From the IMG/VR virus record IMGVR_UViG_3300007617_000006, positions 1 to 35,507 of that record: DNA of 35,507 nt; one strand, 5' to 3'. This DNA is from a virus. The notes beneath the pieces were generated by a model. It did not search any database and was not told the DNA's origin. It saw only the letters and a program-made list of their open reading frames with translations. Positions 2,218 through 30,286 of this stretch are shown piece after piece; the stretch's first letter is position 1; every line of letters begins with the position of its first letter. Position numbers and translations under genes: made by a program.

Positions 2218-2355
2218 CGTAAGATCTGTTTGTTCAATACGATCTTTAATTAATTTAGCAATGATGTTATGGGCCTCAATATTTTCAGTTTCGGACCCAC
2301 CCCATAACAATTGCTGCGCTTTGTTTAATTGATCATTGATGTATACGTCACTCAT
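2215..2355 (-). CDS. Small phage protein, unknown function
   Basis: Forty-six residues beginning MSDVYINDQLNKAQQLLWGG; probably helical. Its ATG overlaps the stop of the 119-residue gene by eight bases (ATGAGTGA), indicating coupled translation. No family recognised. Confidence 0.5.
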   Translation of the reverse strand: MSDVYINDQLNKAQQLLWGGSETENIEAHNIIAKLIKDRIEQTDLT

Positions 2356-2707
2356 TTTCATCTTCTTCCTCCTCATCATCTTCGGGCACCTCATCGATTA
2401 TCTGTCGGTCTATCATCCAGTCCCGTATGCCCTCGTGTAGGTCTTCTGCGCCATACTCTAGGGACCAGCCATTCTTGTCTGCGTCTTCCCAAAACATCTG
2501 CCACACGTCCTCAATGTCTTCAGTTACACAGTATTCCTCTTCAGCACCCTCTTGAATGCTTGTGTAGAGGTCTCGTGCAACATCCCATGCATACACCCAA
2601 ACAAGGGGCAGGCCAACGGGAAGTTTAGTTATCTTGGCAATGATATCTTCAATCTCATTGTAAGTATCAAGCATGCGAGTTTTTTCCTGTAGGTCCATGT
2701 CAGCCAT
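2348..2707 (-). CDS. Acidic phage protein, unknown function
   Basis: One hundred nineteen residues, strongly acidic, ending in a run of about 14 residues that is almost all Asp/Glu (EVPEDDEEEEDENE). Trp-rich middle (WQMFWEDADKNGWSLEYG). Such tails occur in DNA-mimic or chaperone-like proteins, but there is no specific match. ATG overlaps the previous stop by eight bases and the gene overlaps the next one by eight, so it sits in a coupled operon. Confidence 0.6.
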   Translation of the reverse strand: MADMDLQEKTRMLDTYNEIEDIIAKITKLPVGLPLVWVYAWDVARDLYTSIQEGAEEEYCVTEDIEDVWQMFWEDADKNGWSLEYGAEDLHEGIRDWMIDRQIIDEVPEDDEEEEDENE

Positions 2708-2996
2708 TTACGTGCTCCTTCATATCTCTAATTAGTTTATCGTTCTTAGCAAATGCTATGTCATATGTAAGACCATATAGTTCTCCATATGTTTCAAGGA
2801 CGCCTTCCCAATATTTGCGTTCCATAGAATCCATGGCTTCGCCTGATTCTTCTTCGGCTTCCGTTGCATATTCCAATTGCTTTTCTGCTTCAACCATGAG
2901 CACCTTTAGTTCGCCGTGCAGAATGTCTGCACCGTCCATGTCAAGGTTGACCATGCGTTGAAGGTGGGGCGGGAGGCCAATATCTTCTCTATTCAT
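2700..2996 (-). CDS. Acidic helical phage protein, unknown function
   Basis: Ninety-eight residues from the ATG at 2996 (MNREDIGLPPHLQRM), chosen over an upstream in-frame ATG because GGAG lies seven bases before it and the start overlaps the preceding stop (ATGAATAG). Highly charged helices in the middle. No family recognised. Confidence 0.6.
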   Translation of the reverse strand: MNREDIGLPPHLQRMVNLDMDGADILHGELKVLMVEAEKQLEYATEAEEESGEAMDSMERKYWEGVLETYGELYGLTYDIAFAKNDKLIRDMKEHVNG

Positions 2997-3141
2997 TATT
3001 AACTCCAGCCTTATAGATATGAACAAGACGTTCTACAATTGATTTAAATGCTTCATCTTCATCAGACATAGCGGATTCAAAATATAGAATTTGACTTGCT
3101 TGGTCTTCAAGGTCTTCCATTATCCTTTTAGATAGTTTCAT
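2989..3141 (-). CDS. Small acidic phage protein
   Basis: Fifty residues (MKLSKRIMEDLEDQASQILY ...). ATG overlaps the upstream stop as ATGA and its TAG overlaps the next ATG by eight bases. GAAAGGGAAT precedes the start. A TGTCAG-N10-TATAAT promoter lies inside the upstream gene, 27 bases before the start. Confidence 0.55.
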   Translation of the reverse strand: MKLSKRIMEDLEDQASQILYFESAMSDEDEAFKSIVERLVHIYKAGVNNE

Positions 3142-3332
3142 TCATATTCCCTTTCGTTTGAGTTGTTCATTATATCAGTTGCCACTGACAATATATGCCT
3201 TGTATTTAAAATCTCTGCTTCCTTACATCTGTAGAAATGATGTTCATTTACATAATCAATTTCTTCTAGGTCCTGCATTAAACTAATCTCATGTATCTTT
3301 AGATACTCCATAAAACTTGATGACCTAGTCAA
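3138..3332 (-). CDS. Small phage protein (probable TTG start)
   Basis: Sixty-four residues if started at TTG 3332, which has a strong GGAGGG four to five bases upstream and overlaps the previous stop (TTGACTAG). An ATG at 3311 would give 57 residues but lacks a ribosome-binding site. Contains HHFYRCKEAE; no domain recognised. Its C-terminal codons are also the promoter of the next gene. Confidence 0.5.
   Translation of the reverse strand: MTRSSSFMEYLKIHEISLMQDLEEIDYVNEHHFYRCKEAEILNTRHILSVATDIMNNSNEREYE
3169..3190 (-). promoter_or_regulatory. TGTCAG-N10-TATAAT promoter (within coding sequence)
   Basis: TGTCAG at 3185-3190, 10-base spacer ending TGA, TATAAT at 3169-3174. Drives the 50-residue gene; followed by AACGAAAGGG. 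Confidence 0.65.
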
Positions 3333-3465
3333 AGTATCCCTCCGCCCATAGACCCTGTAAAAAGCTAACCGCATCCTCCAGGTCTTTTCTAAGTTCTGTC
3401 TTATCCATTAAATCGGACGGGGTTCTAAGATAGAATAACTTAGCGTCATGAACAGCATTAATCAT
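3325..3465 (-). CDS. Small phage protein, start uncertain
   Basis: Forty-six residues from ATG 3465 (MINAVHDAKLFYLRTPSDLM ...). That ATG has no ribosome-binding site. The same frame is open upstream to a TAA; an ATT codon at 3498, preceded by GGGGG and overlapping the upstream gene's end, would add LGYTESDLNRM, which looks like a natural N-terminus. Ends by overlapping the next gene. No family recognised. Confidence 0.45.
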   Translation of the reverse strand: MINAVHDAKLFYLRTPSDLMDKTELRKDLEDAVSFLQGLWAEGYFD

Positions 3466-3491
3466 TCTATTTAGATCGGATTCCGTATAAC

Positions 3492-3614
3492 CTAAAATAT
3501 TACTACCCCCGATTTACTAGTTTGTGGTTCTTTGGACATTTCTTGTGCTGCTCCACATTTGCAGGTATATCTATGCCAAAATGGAGTCCATTCCCAATTG
3601 TGTTCGTGTTTCAT
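3492..3614 (-). CDS. Tiny Cys/Trp-rich protein
   Basis: Forty residues. N-terminal half is aromatic and His-rich (HEHNWEWTPFWHRYTCKCG) with a CKC pair that, with His, could hold a metal. Its ATG overlaps the upstream stop. Unknown function. Confidence 0.45.
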   Translation of the reverse strand: MKHEHNWEWTPFWHRYTCKCGAAQEMSKEPQTSKSGVVIF

Positions 3615-3826
3615 AGTAAGAACTCATCTCCCTCAATATATCCATAATACTCATTGTATTGTTGCTTTAGTTCATCTGAAGCAAATGACATAAATTGCCA
3701 TTCAGCATAATCTGAACCTGATTCTAAATTGTTATATGACCATTGGTCAAATAAATGTTCTGCTATTTCCTGCTGAATTGCTCCAGTAATGTGTTCTGCT
3801 ATTGTGTCTATGAACTGTTCGCTCAT
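3611..3826 (-). CDS. Small acidic phage protein
   Basis: Seventy-one residues from ATG 3826 (MSEQFIDTIAEHITGAIQQE), preferred over an upstream frame start because GGCGGAAG precedes it and the ATG overlaps the Api92-like stop (ATGA). Amphipathic N-terminal helix, Trp/Tyr-rich second half. Unknown function. Confidence 0.55.
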   Translation of the reverse strand: MSEQFIDTIAEHITGAIQQEIAEHLFDQWSYNNLESGSDYAEWQFMSFASDELKQQYNEYYGYIEGDEFLL

Positions 3827-14433: not shown

Positions 14434-15333
14434 ATGGAACATAGACTACTCACTAAAGATGTTATCCTTTTTAAAAATACACTAAGGGATCCAGCTGCGA
14501 CCCAGGATTTTATTATACGCTCTAAAACCAATAATGACCAGTGGTTTGGAAACTGGGAAGACTGGCGTCCTTGGGGTCAATATTCAAAGGCCTATCCATA
14601 TCAGGACTCATCATATGAAGTTTGTCAAAATGAAGGCGGAGAATACCTAAGAGAATTTCTAGACATCTTCTGGAACGTAATGAAGATATATAAGGAAAAT
14701 TATTTAAACGAAGACTACTTTAAGCTAATAGACGAAGACCCTAATATTCCAACGACTATGGAAGAAGCTAGAAAGCATCCAACATACTGCACTGCTGATG
14801 TTGTAATTTTAGAATCAGAAAACACAGATACTTCAAAACCACTATCAATGGAATACCATCAGGATAGAAGGCCTTGGTTTGGTGGCACTCCACATATATT
14901 TAATTTTAATATCTATACTAACGATGATTATGAAGGTGGAGATATTTTACTAATCAATACAGAGGATGCAGAGATATCAACCTATATTGATGAAGCTGGG
15001 GTAGAGAGAAAATGCTACATGATTGATCCACCAGTAAGATACAAGATGGAAGCTGGAGACGGACTTCTATTTAGAACAGACGTATTCCATGCGGTATTAC
15101 CAGTTGTAGGAAATAAATTTTATGTTCGTCAATTCTTAACAGCATCATTCAAGAAAGAGTATGAAGACAAAAAGGCAAGTATGTCAGAAGAAGAATTTGA
15201 TGATCTTTTAAAACAAGAAGAAAAAGAAGGATTTGCTAAGTACGGCTGGCAATGCAGAATTTATAATTCAAAAGAAGAAATAGGCAATGGCGGAAATGAC
15301 AATCAAATAGTTTGTGTAGTCAAGAATGTTTGA
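14434..15333 (+). CDS. 2-oxoglutarate/Fe(II)-dependent oxygenase
   Basis: Two hundred ninety-nine residues. The double-stranded beta-helix core shows the iron triad H142-x-D144 (EYHQDRRPWFGG) and H219 (FRTDVFHAVLP), with R232 (FYVRQF) placed to bind 2-oxoglutarate, as in prolyl-4-hydroxylase-like enzymes. The substrate is not evident. N-terminus GNWEDWRPWG is Trp-rich. AGGAAA lies before the ATG. It overlaps a related oxygenase by eight bases (ATGTTTGA) and both share a tandem origin by their common layout. Confidence 0.8.
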   Translation: MEHRLLTKDVILFKNTLRDPAATQDFIIRSKTNNDQWFGNWEDWRPWGQYSKAYPYQDSSYEVCQNEGGEYLREFLDIFWNVMKIYKENYLNEDYFKLIDEDPNIPTTMEEARKHPTYCTADVVILESENTDTSKPLSMEYHQDRRPWFGGTPHIFNFNIYTNDDYEGGDILLINTEDAEISTYIDEAGVERKCYMIDPPVRYKMEAGDGLLFRTDVFHAVLPVVGNKFYVRQFLTASFKKEYEDKKASMSEEEFDDLLKQEEKEGFAKYGWQCRIYNSKEEIGNGGNDNQIVCVVKNV

Positions 15334-16222
15334 TGCTTTTGAATTGACTAATGGAGTTCTTGTATTTAAGAATGTATTAAAAGATCCAAAGAAAACCTAT
15401 GACACTATAAAAAAATCTCAAACTGAAAAACATGAGTTATTTACAGACTGGATGGATTGGGGAATCTCTGGATGTAAGTCGACATTAGATCCGTATGACA
15501 CAAGAGATCTTAATAACGAACCTGGAGAGCTTATCAAAGAGCTTGGTAGTATATATACACAATGTATTAACTACTACAAAGACAACTATCTAAACATGGA
15601 CTACTTAAAGTCCTTAGATATAGAACCAAACTACAATATACCAGCAACATACGAAGAGGCATCTCAAGCTGGTGGATGGGGATCTGCAGATATACTTCTT
15701 GTAGACTATGCAGACAGTTTTGGTGATGATGGATTTATAAACGGATACCACATTGATAGAACTCCATTTTGGGGTTCATCTCCACATGCATTTACATTAA
15801 ACGTATACCCATATGATGATTTTGAAGGTGGCGGATTGGCATTTATAGATATGGAAACGGCAGAACGAAAGATTACAGATAATGGCGTAGAGTACTATGA
15901 GATAGATAAGCCAATAGAATACTTCCCTGAAGCTGGAGATGCTATGTTTTTCTCTTCATTGCATTATCATGGCGTGTATGGAACCAAAAACGGTGAGAAG
16001 GTATTTATTAGAATGTATGTAGAGTCGCCTATGCCTAATGCATATAAGAAGGAAATAGAATTTATGACTCAAGATCAAATTAATGAAAAGCGTGATATAT
16101 CTAGAAAAGAGTGTTTTGCAAGTAACTCTCATCAAGCTAACATTTATAATTCTGTAGAAGAAATATCAAATATACAAAAGTTAAATAAGAAATTCATAAT
16201 TAGGAATAAAGCAGTTGACTAG
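15326..16222 (+). CDS. 2-oxoglutarate/Fe(II)-dependent oxygenase, paralogue
   Basis: Two hundred ninety-eight residues, same length and architecture as the preceding gene. H142-x-D144 (GYHIDRTPFWGS), probable H215 (SSLHYHGVYG) and R229 (VFIRMY). Both carry the same IP-x-T-x-E-E-A segment before the core and a C-terminal IYNS-x-E-E-I block, showing a gene duplication. Substrate unknown. Confidence 0.8.
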   Translation: MFDAFELTNGVLVFKNVLKDPKKTYDTIKKSQTEKHELFTDWMDWGISGCKSTLDPYDTRDLNNEPGELIKELGSIYTQCINYYKDNYLNMDYLKSLDIEPNYNIPATYEEASQAGGWGSADILLVDYADSFGDDGFINGYHIDRTPFWGSSPHAFTLNVYPYDDFEGGGLAFIDMETAERKITDNGVEYYEIDKPIEYFPEAGDAMFFSSLHYHGVYGTKNGEKVFIRMYVESPMPNAYKKEIEFMTQDQINEKRDISRKECFASNSHQANIYNSVEEISNIQKLNKKFIIRNKAVD

Positions 16223-17153: not shown

Positions 17154-17636
17154 CTATATAGGTCTTTTGTCTCTTTTGTATGCATTAGAAATTGTTTTAG
17201 ATAGATATTTGTATTTTGATCTTGTTTCATCATAACTAAAAAACATTGATATAGATAATCTATCAGCGCCCAAAACTTCTGTTACCTCATGCGGGGTGTT
17301 CTTATTACTATTAAAAAAAAGTAGTTGACCAGAATTTGGCTTAACTTTTATGTTTTGAAAAATAAATTCTCCACCATTGTAATCACTATTTAAATAAAGT
17401 ATTGCAGATATTAGATTTTCTTCATTATTATCTATGTCTGTATGTAGAGAATTAAATGATCCAGACTTCATAGTTAGAAATTCAACCCATTGTGTGTAAA
17501 CTTTAGCATTATTATATTTAGATATTATGCTAGAAGTTTTATCTACTATTAAATCAATAGAGGTTTGTTTATTTAAAAAAGATTCAATTTCTTCTTTAGA
17601 TAAAAAATTATTTATTGATACCAGCATTTTTTGCAT
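17154..17636 (-). CDS. 2-oxoglutarate/Fe(II)-dependent oxygenase (P4H-like, short)
   Basis: One hundred sixty residues, little more than the catalytic core. H65-x-D67 (SLHTDIDNN), the typical YLN-x-x-Y-x-G-G-E-F strand, H116 (NTPHEVTEV) and R126 (ADRLSISMFF) complete the iron and 2-oxoglutarate sites of prolyl-4-hydroxylase-type enzymes. It overlaps the upstream oxygenase by 29 bases. ATG 17627 (MLVSINNFLS) is an alternative start that fits family N-termini. Confidence 0.8.
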   Translation of the reverse strand: MQKMLVSINNFLSKEEIESFLNKQTSIDLIVDKTSSIISKYNNAKVYTQWVEFLTMKSGSFNSLHTDIDNNEENLISAILYLNSDYNGGEFIFQNIKVKPNSGQLLFFNSNKNTPHEVTEVLGADRLSISMFFSYDETRSKYKYLSKTISNAYKRDKRPI

Positions 17637-18438
17637 TAATTATTTTGTGAGTGTTATCGCAATATGGAAAATCTGCTGATTGTCCACAAATGCACTTCTT
17701 TTTGCAGAATGTTGTTTCAGGGTATACTGTTTGTACCCAACTAATTATCTCTTTTTCATCCGTCATGTGCGGATGCTTGTCTGGATTAAATAGCTCATAT
17801 GTTCCAGGAGCATGCTCTAGTTCCATGCAGAAGTTTGAATAAGCATACCTTGTACCAGATGTAATTTTTCTTACACCATGCTCCCAAGGGTGTGTTGCTC
17901 CATGTATTGCCATATCTCCTGGTCGCACATCTACCTCTAAGCAATCAAATGGGTCCCCAGGTCTATTTTTTACAGATCCGTCTTTTTCAAGATTTGGGTA
18001 AAATATTTGTCCGTCAGCGTAGTCTCCAAAATATGTAACTATTCCATGACTTAGTCTACAGCAAGTTGACCATCTATCTAATTGTGTTAGATTATGCTCC
18101 ATATTCATTCCTGGGCTATCTGCGTGTACAAACATGCCCTCATCACCTGGACGCATAACATTAACAAAAAGCTGTGGATGGATGTAGTGCTCTGGGTATA
18201 GGGCTAAAGAAATTCTATCCCATATAGGCTTTAATTCAAGCATCAAGGGTCCTGTTTTATTTTTGTACCAATCAATTGCCTGGTCTTCAAATTTAAATGC
18301 ATCCTGGTTATTAGCAAATTTAGATTCATACTCTTTCATGATTGACATTATTTGGTTATTTTCTTCTTCTGTTACAAAGTTACGCCAAATCCAAACTTGA
18401 TCCGCCACTTGCTCAAAATTCTTGTTGTCAGTAAACAT
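17608..18438 (-). CDS. 2OG/Fe(II) oxygenase with C-terminal CDGSH-like iron-sulfur motif
   Basis: Two hundred seventy-six residues. Core: H105-x-D107 (FVHADSPG), H187 (PWEHGVRKI) and R197 (GTRYAYSNF). Residues 249-264 read C-I-C-G-Q-S-A-D-F-P-Y-C-D-N-T-H, which keeps the CDGSH spacing exactly: C-x-C, nine residues to the third Cys, four to His, plus the conserved Ser and Pro. CDGSH domains carry a 2Fe-2S cluster. The fusion could supply electrons or sense redox state for the oxygenase; that is inference. Starts directly at the end of the upstream small gene. Confidence 0.8.
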   Translation of the reverse strand: MFTDNKNFEQVADQVWIWRNFVTEEENNQIMSIMKEYESKFANNQDAFKFEDQAIDWYKNKTGPLMLELKPIWDRISLALYPEHYIHPQLFVNVMRPGDEGMFVHADSPGMNMEHNLTQLDRWSTCCRLSHGIVTYFGDYADGQIFYPNLEKDGSVKNRPGDPFDCLEVDVRPGDMAIHGATHPWEHGVRKITSGTRYAYSNFCMELEHAPGTYELFNPDKHPHMTDEKEIISWVQTVYPETTFCKKKCICGQSADFPYCDNTHKIINAKNAGINK

Positions 18439-26410: not shown

Positions 26411-29083
26411 ATGCCACTAAACATTTTTGATGGTTCTGCATGGAAACCCTTCAAAAAAATATCAATCTACGATGGCTCTGCCTGGAAAGATTCAAAAGCA
26501 TCTTATGTTTATGACGGCTCACAATGGAAAAAATTTGGAGCGGCAGTACCGAAAAATACAATAGCTCCAATATTCACATGGCAAAATAATAATAGACAAG
26601 CAGGCCAATATATATCTATAGGAGTTGGTACATGGGAAAACTCCCCAACTTCATTTACATATACATGGCAAAAAGCACCATTTGCACTTAGCGGAGCACA
26701 TGCAGAATCTTCCTGGGTAACTTTTGGAGATAATCAAAACTCTTCTTATATTGATAAGCAAATGATTGGCTATGTTTTAAGATGCAAGGTAGTTGCCATA
26801 AATGAATTTGGAGAATCAGATCCAGTATATGTTAATGGAAATAATTTAATTTCTGTGTATACAAATGGAATAGATTCAATTTCAACTGATGATCAAAATC
26901 AAGTTGTAAGGCCACAAAATGTATTTTATGTAGACCATACTCTTACGCAGAATGGTAGAATTAATTTAAGATGGGTAAAGCCAATAGGAGCTGATCAATA
27001 TAGAGTATATTGGGTGGGACCAGGGGTACAAAACCAAAAAGATGTTACTACTGTAATTGATGGAACTGCATACGATACAACATCAATAGACACTGGCTCA
27101 GCAGATGGACAATTAACTGTTTATATTACATCACAAAATGTAAATAATCCATACACACAATCTTTATATAATACTCCTTTAGAAAGCCCAACATTTAAAG
27201 AGTATGTTATTCCAGATATGAAGCCATTTAAGCCTTCCGTCACCATCGGAGTTTCTGATGTACTTCAAACCACCGCCACCCTATCTTGGAGCAATTCTAA
27301 TTTAACTCAAACAGCATGGGAAATTTATTGGGTTAATCCAGACGGATCTTCAATGCCAGCAGGATCTGGATCAGGTTCAACATCAACAATTCCTCTTACA
27401 TTCTTAACAGCGGGAGAAACATATAGATATAAGGTTGTAGTTACAGGAACGGCAGATAGATTTAGCGAAACCTCTTGGACATCTAATACCGTACAATTTA
27501 CAACAAATGCAGGAGTTTCTTACTATACTGGAATTTCTAGATGTAACCCATTTAGTGGAGTATACGCATCAAATCCATCAGTAACTGGACCAACTGTTTC
27601 TCCAAACAATACAATACCAACAGATACATATGTTATTGATGGAACATTAAGCACACAAACAGTTTATAGAACAACTTATTCAGAAGCTCTTGTTGCTGCA
27701 GCAAATGCTGCTTGTGATCCAACAATTACTCCGACTCCAACCACAGCTCCCCCAACACAGTATGTGTATTACACAGGTACATCTTTATGTAATCCATTTA
27801 GCGGAGTATACGGAGCGTCTCCAACAGCATCTGGGCCGTTAACAAATACCACAGGAATACCATCAGACACATACGACACCACTGGAACTTATAGAAGAAA
27901 ATATGTTTATAGAACAACATACGCTGCGGCTCTTGCAGATGCTGGAAATGCTGCTTGTGATCCAACAATTACTCCGACTCCGACTCCAACAGCGACACCA
28001 ACACCAACTACTACTCCAACACCGTCTCCGACCCCTACACCAACTCCAACACCAACTCCTTTACCATCTTGTCCAGGAACTTATACAAATCCAGTTTCTT
28101 ATACATGTGCTGAACTTGGATATGTAAGGCTTGGCGGATCAACAGAATATAGTGTGCCTAGCGGATGGTCTTGTTGCGGAGGAGCCCTTCCAACTCCGAC
28201 ACCTACAGCGACACCAACACCAACTGCAACACCTACACCAGGACCTACAGCTACACCAACACCAACTGCAACACCTACACCAACTCCAACACCTACCCCT
28301 ACACCAGCTGCAAAATTAACATGTCCAGGAACTTATACTAATCCAACATCTTACACATGCTCTGAATTAGGTTATGAGTATTTGGGTGGTTCTTCAACTT
28401 ACAGCGTACCAACTGGGTGGCAATGTTGTGGTGGAGCTTTAGCATTTGCACCTCCAGGATTCTTTGCACCACCAGGATTCTTTTCACCACCAGGATTCTT
28501 CTCTCCTCCAGGATTCTTCTCTCCTCCAGGATTCTTTGCCCCACCAGGATTCTTTGCCCCACCAAGCTTTATTTACATCCCTTGGTTTGGACCTCCTTGC
28601 GTAGAAGAGAATACACTTGTAGACACAATGGATGGTCAAGTACCAGCTAAGTTCCTACAGGTTGGAGATAAAATAAAATCTATTGCAATTGATCAAATTG
28701 ATCCGTTAACACCTGACTCATATCAGTTCTCTACCTGGTCATCTGCTGATTTTTCAGTAGGTCAATTTGTAGAAACTACAATTACAGATATAATTGAAAC
28801 TCAAGAATCAGACATTTTATATTTTAATGAAAATGTAGATACAAGAATGACATACACACAGCCAGTTTTTGTTAAAACTTTATCAGGAGATTATAAGATT
28901 AAAGAAGCGTACTATGTTGAAGTTGGTGAATACATAATTAATATTAATTCACAAGCACAAATGGAAGAAACTTTAGTCGACAAAATAGAATTCTTAGTTG
29001 ACCAAACTGTTAATGTTTATCAACTTTCCTGTGAGCCAAATGACTGGTTCTTTGTAAATGGCACGCTTGTGCACAACAAGTAG
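26411..29083 (+). CDS. Modular tail protein with FN3, Pro-rich linkers and C-terminal Hint domain
   Basis: Eight hundred ninety residues. Order: three DGSAWK-type repeats (5-41); Ig/FN3-like domains to about 370; two copies of a CNPFSGVY domain; Thr-Pro linkers (PTPTPTPTPLP); two copies of a CPGTYTNP...GWSCCGG domain; seven PPGFF-type repeats (680-721); then a Hint domain from C730. The Hint keeps C730-V-E-E-N-T at block A and ends FFVNGTLVHNK (H888, N889), but block B has Q817 (TYTQP) where inteins have His. With only Lys after Asn there is no C-extein, so splicing is not expected. Probable secreted-face fibre or adhesin. Confidence 0.75.
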   Translation: MPLNIFDGSAWKPFKKISIYDGSAWKDSKASYVYDGSQWKKFGAAVPKNTIAPIFTWQNNNRQAGQYISIGVGTWENSPTSFTYTWQKAPFALSGAHAESSWVTFGDNQNSSYIDKQMIGYVLRCKVVAINEFGESDPVYVNGNNLISVYTNGIDSISTDDQNQVVRPQNVFYVDHTLTQNGRINLRWVKPIGADQYRVYWVGPGVQNQKDVTTVIDGTAYDTTSIDTGSADGQLTVYITSQNVNNPYTQSLYNTPLESPTFKEYVIPDMKPFKPSVTIGVSDVLQTTATLSWSNSNLTQTAWEIYWVNPDGSSMPAGSGSGSTSTIPLTFLTAGETYRYKVVVTGTADRFSETSWTSNTVQFTTNAGVSYYTGISRCNPFSGVYASNPSVTGPTVSPNNTIPTDTYVIDGTLSTQTVYRTTYSEALVAAANAACDPTITPTPTTAPPTQYVYYTGTSLCNPFSGVYGASPTASGPLTNTTGIPSDTYDTTGTYRRKYVYRTTYAAALADAGNAACDPTITPTPTPTATPTPTTTPTPSPTPTPTPTPTPLPSCPGTYTNPVSYTCAELGYVRLGGSTEYSVPSGWSCCGGALPTPTPTATPTPTATPTPGPTATPTPTATPTPTPTPTPTPAAKLTCPGTYTNPTSYTCSELGYEYLGGSSTYSVPTGWQCCGGALAFAPPGFFAPPGFFSPPGFFSPPGFFSPPGFFAPPGFFAPPSFIYIPWFGPPCVEENTLVDTMDGQVPAKFLQVGDKIKSIAIDQIDPLTPDSYQFSTWSSADFSVGQFVETTITDIIETQESDILYFNENVDTRMTYTQPVFVKTLSGDYKIKEAYYVEVGEYIININSQAQMEETLVDKIEFLVDQTVNVYQLSCEPNDWFFVNGTLVHNK
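28448..28573 (+). repeat. 18-bp minisatellite encoding PPGFF repeats
   Basis: Seven in-frame units of 18 bases encode [AS]PPGFF (the last is APPSFI). A five-unit version is in the 34451 gene. Confidence 0.85.
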
Positions 29084-29101: not shown

Positions 29102-30286
29102 ATGTCAGTAAAGCCCTGGGATTTACTAAATCCTAATAGCCAATACGCAACCCCACAAGAAGCTGCAAATAGATATTCTATTTGTAAGTCTTGTCCAGAG
29201 TTTTTGGGTCTAACAAAACAATGTAAAAAATGTGGTTGTTTTATGAAGTTTAAAACAAAGCTTCAGGCAGCAGAATGCCCTATTCATAAATGGGGTGCGG
29301 CAGAGCTAGTTCCATTAGAAAAAATGGAGGAACTAATGATAGACAACGATGCAAGGATATTTATTAACATACCTTCATATAAAGATCCAGAGATATGGAA
29401 AACAGTTGATCACTTTATAGCAAATGCGGAATTTCCAGAAAGAGTTTTCTTTGGAATAACCCTTCAAGATGATAATGTTGAATATAATAAAACAGAGACT
29501 CTAAAGAGAAATAATGTTAATGCAGATTGTCTTATTCCAGGATCTATTATTGGATGCCAGCCTGCCAGAAAGAATTCAAATAAATTCTATGCTGGCCAAG
29601 AGTATTATTTAAATATGGACTCCCACATGAGAGCAATACCTAACTGGGATTCAGAAATAATTAAAGAATACAACTATGCAAAGAATGATTTTTCTGAACT
29701 AGTATTTACAGCATATGTCCCACCATATGATGTTGATGAAAATGGCAATGATCAAATTCCAGAAATTTTACAGAACCCTACATTTTACATGACTGAAAGT
29801 AACGTAGCTCATTTTAAGGCTACCCTTGTTCCACAATTTAGTCCACAATATTCTAACCCAGATTCTAATGTGCTGAGCCCGTATGTGTCTGGACATTTCT
29901 TTTTTACAGAAAAATCCGTCATAGAAAAAGTTCCTTTTGTAGATAAAATTGCATTTACAGAAGAAGAGCCAATGATGGCCTTAAGATTCTTTACTGCAGG
30001 ATATAATCTTGTTACACCAAAGAAAGCATTTGTGTATCACAGGTATGGAAGGCCAGACAGAAAACTTATATGGGACGATAGCCCTGAAACATTTTATCCA
30101 AAGCATAACGAGTCCAAGTCTTACTTCCAGCAGATAATTGTTGGACAAAAAATAGATGATACAAGTGGACTATTTACCGAAAGAACACTAGAAGACTTTG
30201 AGAATTATTCAGGAATTCATTTTTCTACTGGTATAATAGATGATAGGGTAATCAAAGGCCTTCCTTCTGGATATTACCCGTCTTAA
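29102..30286 (+). CDS. GlcNAc-transferase-like glycosyltransferase with N-terminal zinc ribbon
   Basis: Three hundred ninety-four residues. C28, C31, C41, C44, C46, C59 and H62 form a zinc-ribbon-like region (ICKSCPE, CKKCGCFMKF, AECPIHKWG). From about residue 84 the GT-A pattern of the Pfam GlcNAc family (Skp1 GnT type, GT60) is visible: RIFINIPSYKDPEIW, PERVFFGITLQ, AGQEYYLNMDSHMRAI (D173-S-H as the metal-binding DxH) and a C-terminal YHRYGRP. These enzymes transfer GlcNAc from UDP-GlcNAc. Position among fibre genes suggests a fibre target; that is inference. No ribosome-binding site; predicted leaderless. Confidence 0.75.
   Translation: MSVKPWDLLNPNSQYATPQEAANRYSICKSCPEFLGLTKQCKKCGCFMKFKTKLQAAECPIHKWGAAELVPLEKMEELMIDNDARIFINIPSYKDPEIWKTVDHFIANAEFPERVFFGITLQDDNVEYNKTETLKRNNVNADCLIPGSIIGCQPARKNSNKFYAGQEYYLNMDSHMRAIPNWDSEIIKEYNYAKNDFSELVFTAYVPPYDVDENGNDQIPEILQNPTFYMTESNVAHFKATLVPQFSPQYSNPDSNVLSPYVSGHFFFTEKSVIEKVPFVDKIAFTEEEPMMALRFFTAGYNLVTPKKAFVYHRYGRPDRKLIWDDSPETFYPKHNESKSYFQQIIVGQKIDDTSGLFTERTLEDFENYSGIHFSTGIIDDRVIKGLPSGYYPS

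Follow-up and report, generated by a model that had tools for sequence, protein, structure and literature searches.

The locus and its neighborhood

The window, i.e. the whole stretch of DNA analyzed, is 35,507 nucleotides long and derives from a freshwater phage. Its ribonucleotide reductase is 65% identical to the enzymes of Streptomyces phages, and for that reason the host is probably an actinobacterium. The features discussed here are the following.

14434..15333, (+) strand: oxygenase-like gene with no Pfam match; iterated profile searches converge on the same 2OG superfamily set
15326..16222, (+) strand: oxygenase-like gene with no Pfam match; iterated profile searches converge on the same 2OG superfamily set
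17154..17636, (−) strand: second 2OG oxygenase (PF13640, E = 9e-14), the next gene, overlapping the first by 29 bases
17608..18438, (−) strand: oxygenase with C-terminal CDGSH-type module, whole ORF of 276 aa, with 36 viral relatives
17800..18438, (−) strand: oxygenase part, residues 1-213, with a predicted prolyl-4-hydroxylase-like fold (invariant residues in 37 sequences; Z = 12.7 to algal P4H 2jig)
17641..17706, (−) strand: CDGSH-type module, residues 245-266, the motif proper at 17647-17694 (Pfam PF09360, E = 8e-6; pN/pS = 0.073; pattern found once in the window)
26411-29083, (+) strand: 890-aa Pro-rich protein with TP and PPGFF repeats, among tail-type genes
29102-30286, (+) strand: PF11397 (GlcNAc) glycosyltransferase, directly after the 890-aa gene (E = 3e-41)

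The genes at 17154..17636 and 17608..18438 are probably co-translated. The two oxygenase-like genes at 14434-15333 and 15326-16222 (+) form an adjacent pair, detectable by iterated profiles only.

An oxygenase with a predicted prolyl 4-hydroxylase fold

The first 240 residues of the 276-aa protein match no 2OG family in Pfam, PHROGs or NCBIfam. Since the curated families give no match, its identity as an oxygenase rests on an invariant HxD...H...R set and on its fold. Close relatives were found at 36 loci in viral contigs, and conserved patterns added others at 31-48% identity. H105, D107, H187 and R197 are invariant across 37 sequences, and have the usual HxD...H...R spacing. By homology H105, D107 and H187 are the iron ligands, and R197 binds 2OG.

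The AlphaFold model used was calculated from the 37-sequence alignment (pLDDT = 79.7, pTM = 0.80); a model from 17 sequences, with pLDDT = 63.6, was set aside. The predicted model has a double-stranded beta-helix fold, with Z up to 12.7 to prolyl 4-hydroxylases. That value is for the algal enzyme 2jig (rmsd 3.7 over 178 residues), and the model also matches the Bacillus anthracis prolyl hydroxylase and PHD2. The top match in the viral structure library was A0A6J7XKI0, a 258-aa Fe2OG dioxygenase of an uncultured Caudovirales phage (E = 4e-26, TM = 0.82 normalized by target, 35% identity). By its residues and its predicted fold the window protein belongs to the 2OG/Fe(II) superfamily, and 2OG-dependent oxidation is predicted. 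The predicted P4H-like fold does not reveal the substrate.

The C-terminal CDGSH-type motif

The protein ends in ...TTFCKKKCICGQSADFPYCDNTHKIINAKNAGINK, and residues 249-264 have the form C-x-C-x2-S-x3-P-Y-C-D-N-T-H. CISD proteins follow the consensus (hydrophobic)CxCxx(S/T)xxxP(hydrophobic)CDG(S/T/A)H (Lin et al. 2011, PMC3174974). The motif residues, within CICGQSADFPYCDNTH, are C249, C251, S254, P258, C260, D261, N262, T263 and H264. C249, C251, C260 and H264 occupy the cluster-ligand positions Cys2, Cys4, Cys13 and His17 of a CISD and are invariant in the relatives, while the core positions (S/T)7, P11, hydrophobic 12, D14 and (S/T/A)16 are present as S254, P258, Y259, D261 and T263. We infer that the three Cys and one His would bind a [2Fe-2S] cluster.

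A preliminary description of this DNA had proposed the mitoNEET ligand spacing with its Ser and Pro, and was right in this and in the ORF, its coordinates and the residue numbering. Pfam zf-CDGSH (PF09360) matches residues 249-265 with E = 8e-6 and a score of 26.4 bits, below the gathering cut-off of 29.5 bits. The same description held that the usual Gly-Ser of CDGSH was replaced by Asn-Thr. The change from Gly stands, as Gly15 is replaced by Asn262 throughout the family of the window protein, but Thr in place of Ser is no departure, lying within the consensus CDG(S/T/A)H (PMC3174974). A second departure was missed: position 1, normally hydrophobic, is Lys248.

The Pfam and profile matches to the module span 17-23 core residues only, and no beta-cap is evident. 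In the AlphaFold model the module tail has a pLDDT of around 50 or less and no confident fold. The DNA pattern of the motif occurs once in the window, on the minus strand, and was found in 0/100 shuffles with two mismatches allowed.

The module is conserved in relatives of the window protein

Using probes taken from the oxygenase part only, the module was found to be kept in 39/39 close relatives. Over the distinct sequences pN/pS shows the strongest constraint in the module, with 0.073 compared with 0.185 for the oxygenase, 0.257 for the linker and 0.363 for the last residues. The description of the protein as a 2OG/Fe(II) oxygenase fused to a CDGSH-type module is thus borne out by the invariant HxD...H...R residues, the P4H-like predicted fold and the retention of the module in all 39 relatives. 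The idea that the fusion is unique to the window phage was rejected, as relatives and other oxygenase types carry it.

The module is absent further out. Relatives of the oxygenase at 31-43% identity have no module, and end in a tail of another kind without the motif. No CDGSH motif was found in flanks of up to 6 kb around 41 more distant relatives. Seven long contigs have distant relatives only; four of these contain one CDGSH motif and three contain none. The lack of a module near distant relatives indicates that this type of enzyme can do without it. The window-type fusion is present on nine long contigs, of which five have a second, separate CDGSH gene ~20-25 kb away. A separate CDGSH ORF of 43-51 aa with a Pro-rich tail (CQCGRSxSYPVCDGSHGRP...) is frequent in phages with this fusion (L169, L175, L170, L136), ~20-25 kb from it.

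The tail could in principle be a chance or decaying motif without function, given its short length, a Pfam score slightly under the gathering cut-off and its absence in distant relatives. Yet it is under strong purifying selection with 39/39 retention, and the module is recurrently fused to oxygenases or associated with their operons and has a profile that matches solved CISDs (see below). We consider this explanation very improbable. A chance motif was specifically rejected by the shuffles (0/100) and by pN/pS of 0.073 against 0.185.

The module in other viral contigs

We scanned viral contigs with the pattern CxCx6PxCD[G/N] followed by a Ser/Thr-type codon and His. This gave numerous small proteins plus fusions, and all the module-bearing viral ORFs of at least 230 aa are 2OG-type oxygenases by profile. 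At least seven other oxygenase types carry the ~20-residue module as an N-terminal fusion; among representatives of seven such types, Pfam places six in PF13640 above the cut-off and one in JmjC_2. The search for the same architecture suggested in the preliminary description finds the module recurring with many oxygenases, fused or as an adjoining gene.

The phage core keeps all the cluster ligands together with S/T7, P11, an aromatic residue at 12, D14 and S/T16. Position 7 is Ser or Thr in 121/121 distinct phage cores. Given that position 7 was left free in the scan patterns behind this set, the cores are not chance CxC...C...H strings. Position 15 is Gly in 86 of the cores and Asn in 35, and position 1 is Gln or Lys in 55/121. 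Gly and Asn interchange between close relatives (CDGTH in L229, CDNTH in L243), which indicates that Asn at position 15 is tolerated. A profile of 13 phage modules retrieved solved CISDs from the PDB, with E from 2e-10 upward and over 17-23 core residues only; no zinc-finger match rose above noise. Against PF09360 one of the separate phage modules reaches 31.7 bits. To judge from these alignments, the conservation of the phage core exceeds the needs of a plain zinc site.

This bears on the possibility that the module is a finger, containing zinc or a structural cluster, that recruits a substrate or partner common to the oxygenases. The prolyl hydroxylase PHD2 has a MYND zinc finger with this kind of recruiting function at its N-terminus; the window protein has a CDGSH tail instead. 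A small Cys/His module that occurs at the N- or the C-terminus of various enzymes, with basic residues flanking the motif (KKKC...HK), would suit such a role, which would also account for a fusion to a WYL_2 protein (see below). However, it leaves S/T7, D14 and S/T16 unexplained; these serve cluster binding in CISDs and are kept here, S/T7 in every core, and the module profile matches CISDs rather than zinc fingers. We regard recruitment as an unlikely role.

The module also occurs apart from oxygenases. It lies at the C-terminus of small proteins of 108-112 aa (L273, L247, L264, L242, L303) and 123 aa (L121, L135, L154); in L273 the partner is WYL_2 (SH3-like) by Pfam. The WYL_2 fusions, and separate modules far from oxygenases, indicate that the module has other uses as well and that the pairing is not exclusive. 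In L234, a 141-aa ORF with its 5' end cut, a CDGSH motif lies near the C-terminus of a protein that by eye resembles a protein-L-isoaspartate methyltransferase.

Among 50,697 records of isolated phages neither the window protein nor the L243 type had a match, the L132 type gave partial oxygenase matches only, and the separate module gave nothing convincing. A scan of bacterial and archaeal genomes with the phage-type spelling of the pattern found only CISD-like proteins without an oxygenase, and a scan for homologues found no oxygenase-module fusion; the exact patterns limit the reach of both scans.

One module per oxygenase cluster, fused or separate

Operon maps show oxygenase genes in rows with the module in mid-row. 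The separate CDGSH genes beside oxygenase genes encode 34-78 aa. Separate phage-type modules adjoin a same-strand 2OG gene in 19/28 cases, compared with 50/238 for other genes at the same loci (Fisher p = 9e-7, which is optimistic since the loci are related). Fused and separate forms occur with related enzymes. L117 has a 39-aa CDGSH gene ahead of an oxygenase that shares 89% identity with the fused L132/L360 type. In seven loci (L140, L146, L155, L160, L200, L217 and L344) a distance of 17-75 bases separates a CDGSH gene from an unfused relative of the window oxygenase at about 38-40% identity; overall, relatives with a separate module next to them span 37-44%. With probes from a single oxygenase type (L132), a module was found within ~2 kb, fused or separate, in 62/80 loci; where two related oxygenases adjoin, the assignment of module to gene is unsure, hence the numbers are pooled. 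Separate CDGSH ORFs of just 24-29 codons, e.g. MKKCTCGESQTKPTCDGSHKNKGK, are seen in L129, L186 and L151. If expressed, their products would be much smaller than every CISD with a known structure.

Fifty distinct clusters have at least four oxygenases. Exactly one module is present in 49 of them (26 fused, 23 separate) and none in the remaining one. As the clusters were fetched by the module pattern the presence of at least one is by construction; the findings are that no cluster has two, and that fused and separate forms are about equally frequent. To place the fused state on a quick tree of 140 oxygenase representatives takes seven changes, all forced by well-supported branches, so the module has probably undergone about seven events of fusion or loss. 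Insofar as sequence comparison can establish it, the fusion, its conservation and the recurrent link of the module to phage oxygenases are secure.

One module for each cluster of 4-9 iron enzymes is what might be expected if it supplied iron or clusters, a labile cluster or iron carrier (re)loading Fe(II) into the oxygenases during the phage burst. NEET proteins have labile, transferable clusters, and hand on both clusters and iron. Such a supply fits the one-per-cluster pattern equally well. The repeated fusion is less easily explained, as attachment to one enzyme brings a carrier little gain, and yet the tree calls for about seven events of fusion or loss. We find this role doubtful.

The arrangement bears also on a gate, whereby the cluster would sense redox state, oxygen or nitric oxide in the cell, and switch the attached oxygenase on or off. 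The direct tether in the window protein would suit this, and mitoNEET has a redox-active cluster that in its reduced state binds NO reversibly (PMC9490426). But about half of the oxygenase clusters encode the module separately, and its partner changes, which would be odd for a built-in allosteric gate; moreover no module lies near the more distant relatives of the window oxygenase. A gate seems quite improbable.

A possible role in keeping the oxygenase iron ferrous

A ferrous active-site iron is a need common to all these oxygenases. The module is common to a row of oxygenases, fused at either end and sometimes absent, which points to a general helper. Because one module is common to several oxygenases, and is lacking near some relatives, we favor a generic helper over a gate on a single enzyme. 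The association suggests a phage-specific helper for iron oxygenases, either fused to them or encoded beside them. Our preferred reading, which we hold at slightly less than an even chance, is that the window protein combines a P4H-fold phage oxygenase with a minimal CDGSH-type module acting as a [2Fe-2S] helper that keeps the oxygenase iron ferrous.

Uncoupled turnover would leave the oxygenase iron stranded as Fe(III). In what we infer to be the likeliest mechanism, electrons, for example from a host flavin, would then pass via the [2Fe-2S] cluster to the Fe(III) oxygenase; this is the least certain part of the scheme. The module would stand in for the ascorbate of eukaryotic prolyl hydroxylases. 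A single module may act in trans on several oxygenases of its cluster, and the tether to a single oxygenase would be a variation on the two-gene arrangement. MitoNEET can move electrons from FMNH2 through its cluster (PMC9490426). We count that transfer from a reduced flavin as support for the mechanism, and by analogy predict re-reduction by the phage module. Of the roles put forward in the preliminary description, both reduction of the ferric enzyme and redox gating are compatible with the evidence.

Some points argue against the helper mechanism. The CISDs with solved structures need a paired beta-sandwich (PMC3174974), and none is evident in the module. There is no module near the distant relatives, and none on three of the seven long contigs that carry them. 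Lastly, the WYL_2 fusions and the modules far from oxygenases reveal other uses.

More broadly, it is possible, and we propose it tentatively, that the oxygenase operons of aquatic phages have a dedicated and exchangeable 2Fe-2S partner, in trans or fused, in a hitherto unrecognized minimal CDGSH microprotein or domain (~20-40 residues, with no beta-cap). If so, this would be the smallest type of CDGSH protein and the first known CDGSH-driven oxygenase system, and would constitute an Fe-S unit of unusually small size, portable and joined to oxygenases several times in nature. A conserved, once-per-cluster accessory, fused to different members, gives a direct handle on how the oxygenases stay active.

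Possible substrates

Gene neighborhood leads us to guess that the substrate is a virion protein, a Pro-rich or collagen-like tail fiber. In the window the 890-aa Pro-rich protein is followed by the PF11397 glycosyltransferase, a family that we take to include Dictyostelium Gnt1, acting on hydroxylated Skp1. In the Skp1 pathway a glycan is built on a hydroxyproline (PMC3515798). The L123 oxygenase cluster adjoins tail-fiber genes, one with a weak collagen match. That tail proteins are hydroxylated, and perhaps then glycosylated, is a reasonable guess and no more. PF11397 was rejected as a regular partner, being found in 7/25 records only. Inside the L123 cluster (2243-3668) are two tandem genes of ~240 aa that match DUF6065 and phrog_7084, families without assigned function; other clusters, too, have genes of similar size in this position.

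Relation to known systems

We found no description of the pairing of an oxygenase with a CDGSH module in the open-licence literature, in agreement with the preliminary description, which knew of none characterized; notice elsewhere is possible. A 2018 survey of the CDGSH domain mentions neither viruses nor fusions. The cyanophage S-SCSM1, with 24 2OG-Fe(II) oxygenase genes, is an example of a phage with many PF13640-type enzymes, their substrate unassigned (PMC9602691). The passages of that report considered here do not mention a CDGSH module, whereas the clusters found here carry one.

The prolyl 4-hydroxylases (Chlamydomonas P4H-1, Bacillus anthracis P4H, PBCV-1 vCPH and PHD2) share with the window protein the double-stranded beta-helix fold, the HxD...H ligands, and an Arg ten residues past the second His. 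They differ in sequence, with 9-19% identity, and the CDGSH tail is found only in the window protein.

Seven types of CISD have been described, with fusions to glutamate synthase (type 5) and DUF1271 (type 7), and none to an oxygenase (PMC3174974). Those of known structure need the paired beta-sandwich (PMC3174974). The phage module shares with types 1-7 (mitoNEET/CISD1, Miner2, MmCISD, RsCISD, PcCISD) the C-x-C-x8-C-x3-H spacing, S/T7, P11, the hydrophobic residue 12, D14 and S/T16. The window module differs in having Asn15 and Lys1, in comprising only ~20 residues without a recognizable beta-sandwich, N-strand or paired module, and in being fused to an oxygenase rather than to glutamate synthase or DUF1271. 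We set it apart from types 1-7 because Gly15, the residue at position 1 and the Pfam score all depart from the family and no beta-cap is evident. The window module is, by its sequence, CDGSH-like but outside CISD types 1-7, and is predicted to bind a cluster. If it does so without a beta-cap, then a CDGSH module would be able to dispense with the paired beta-sandwich hitherto thought obligatory (PMC3174974).
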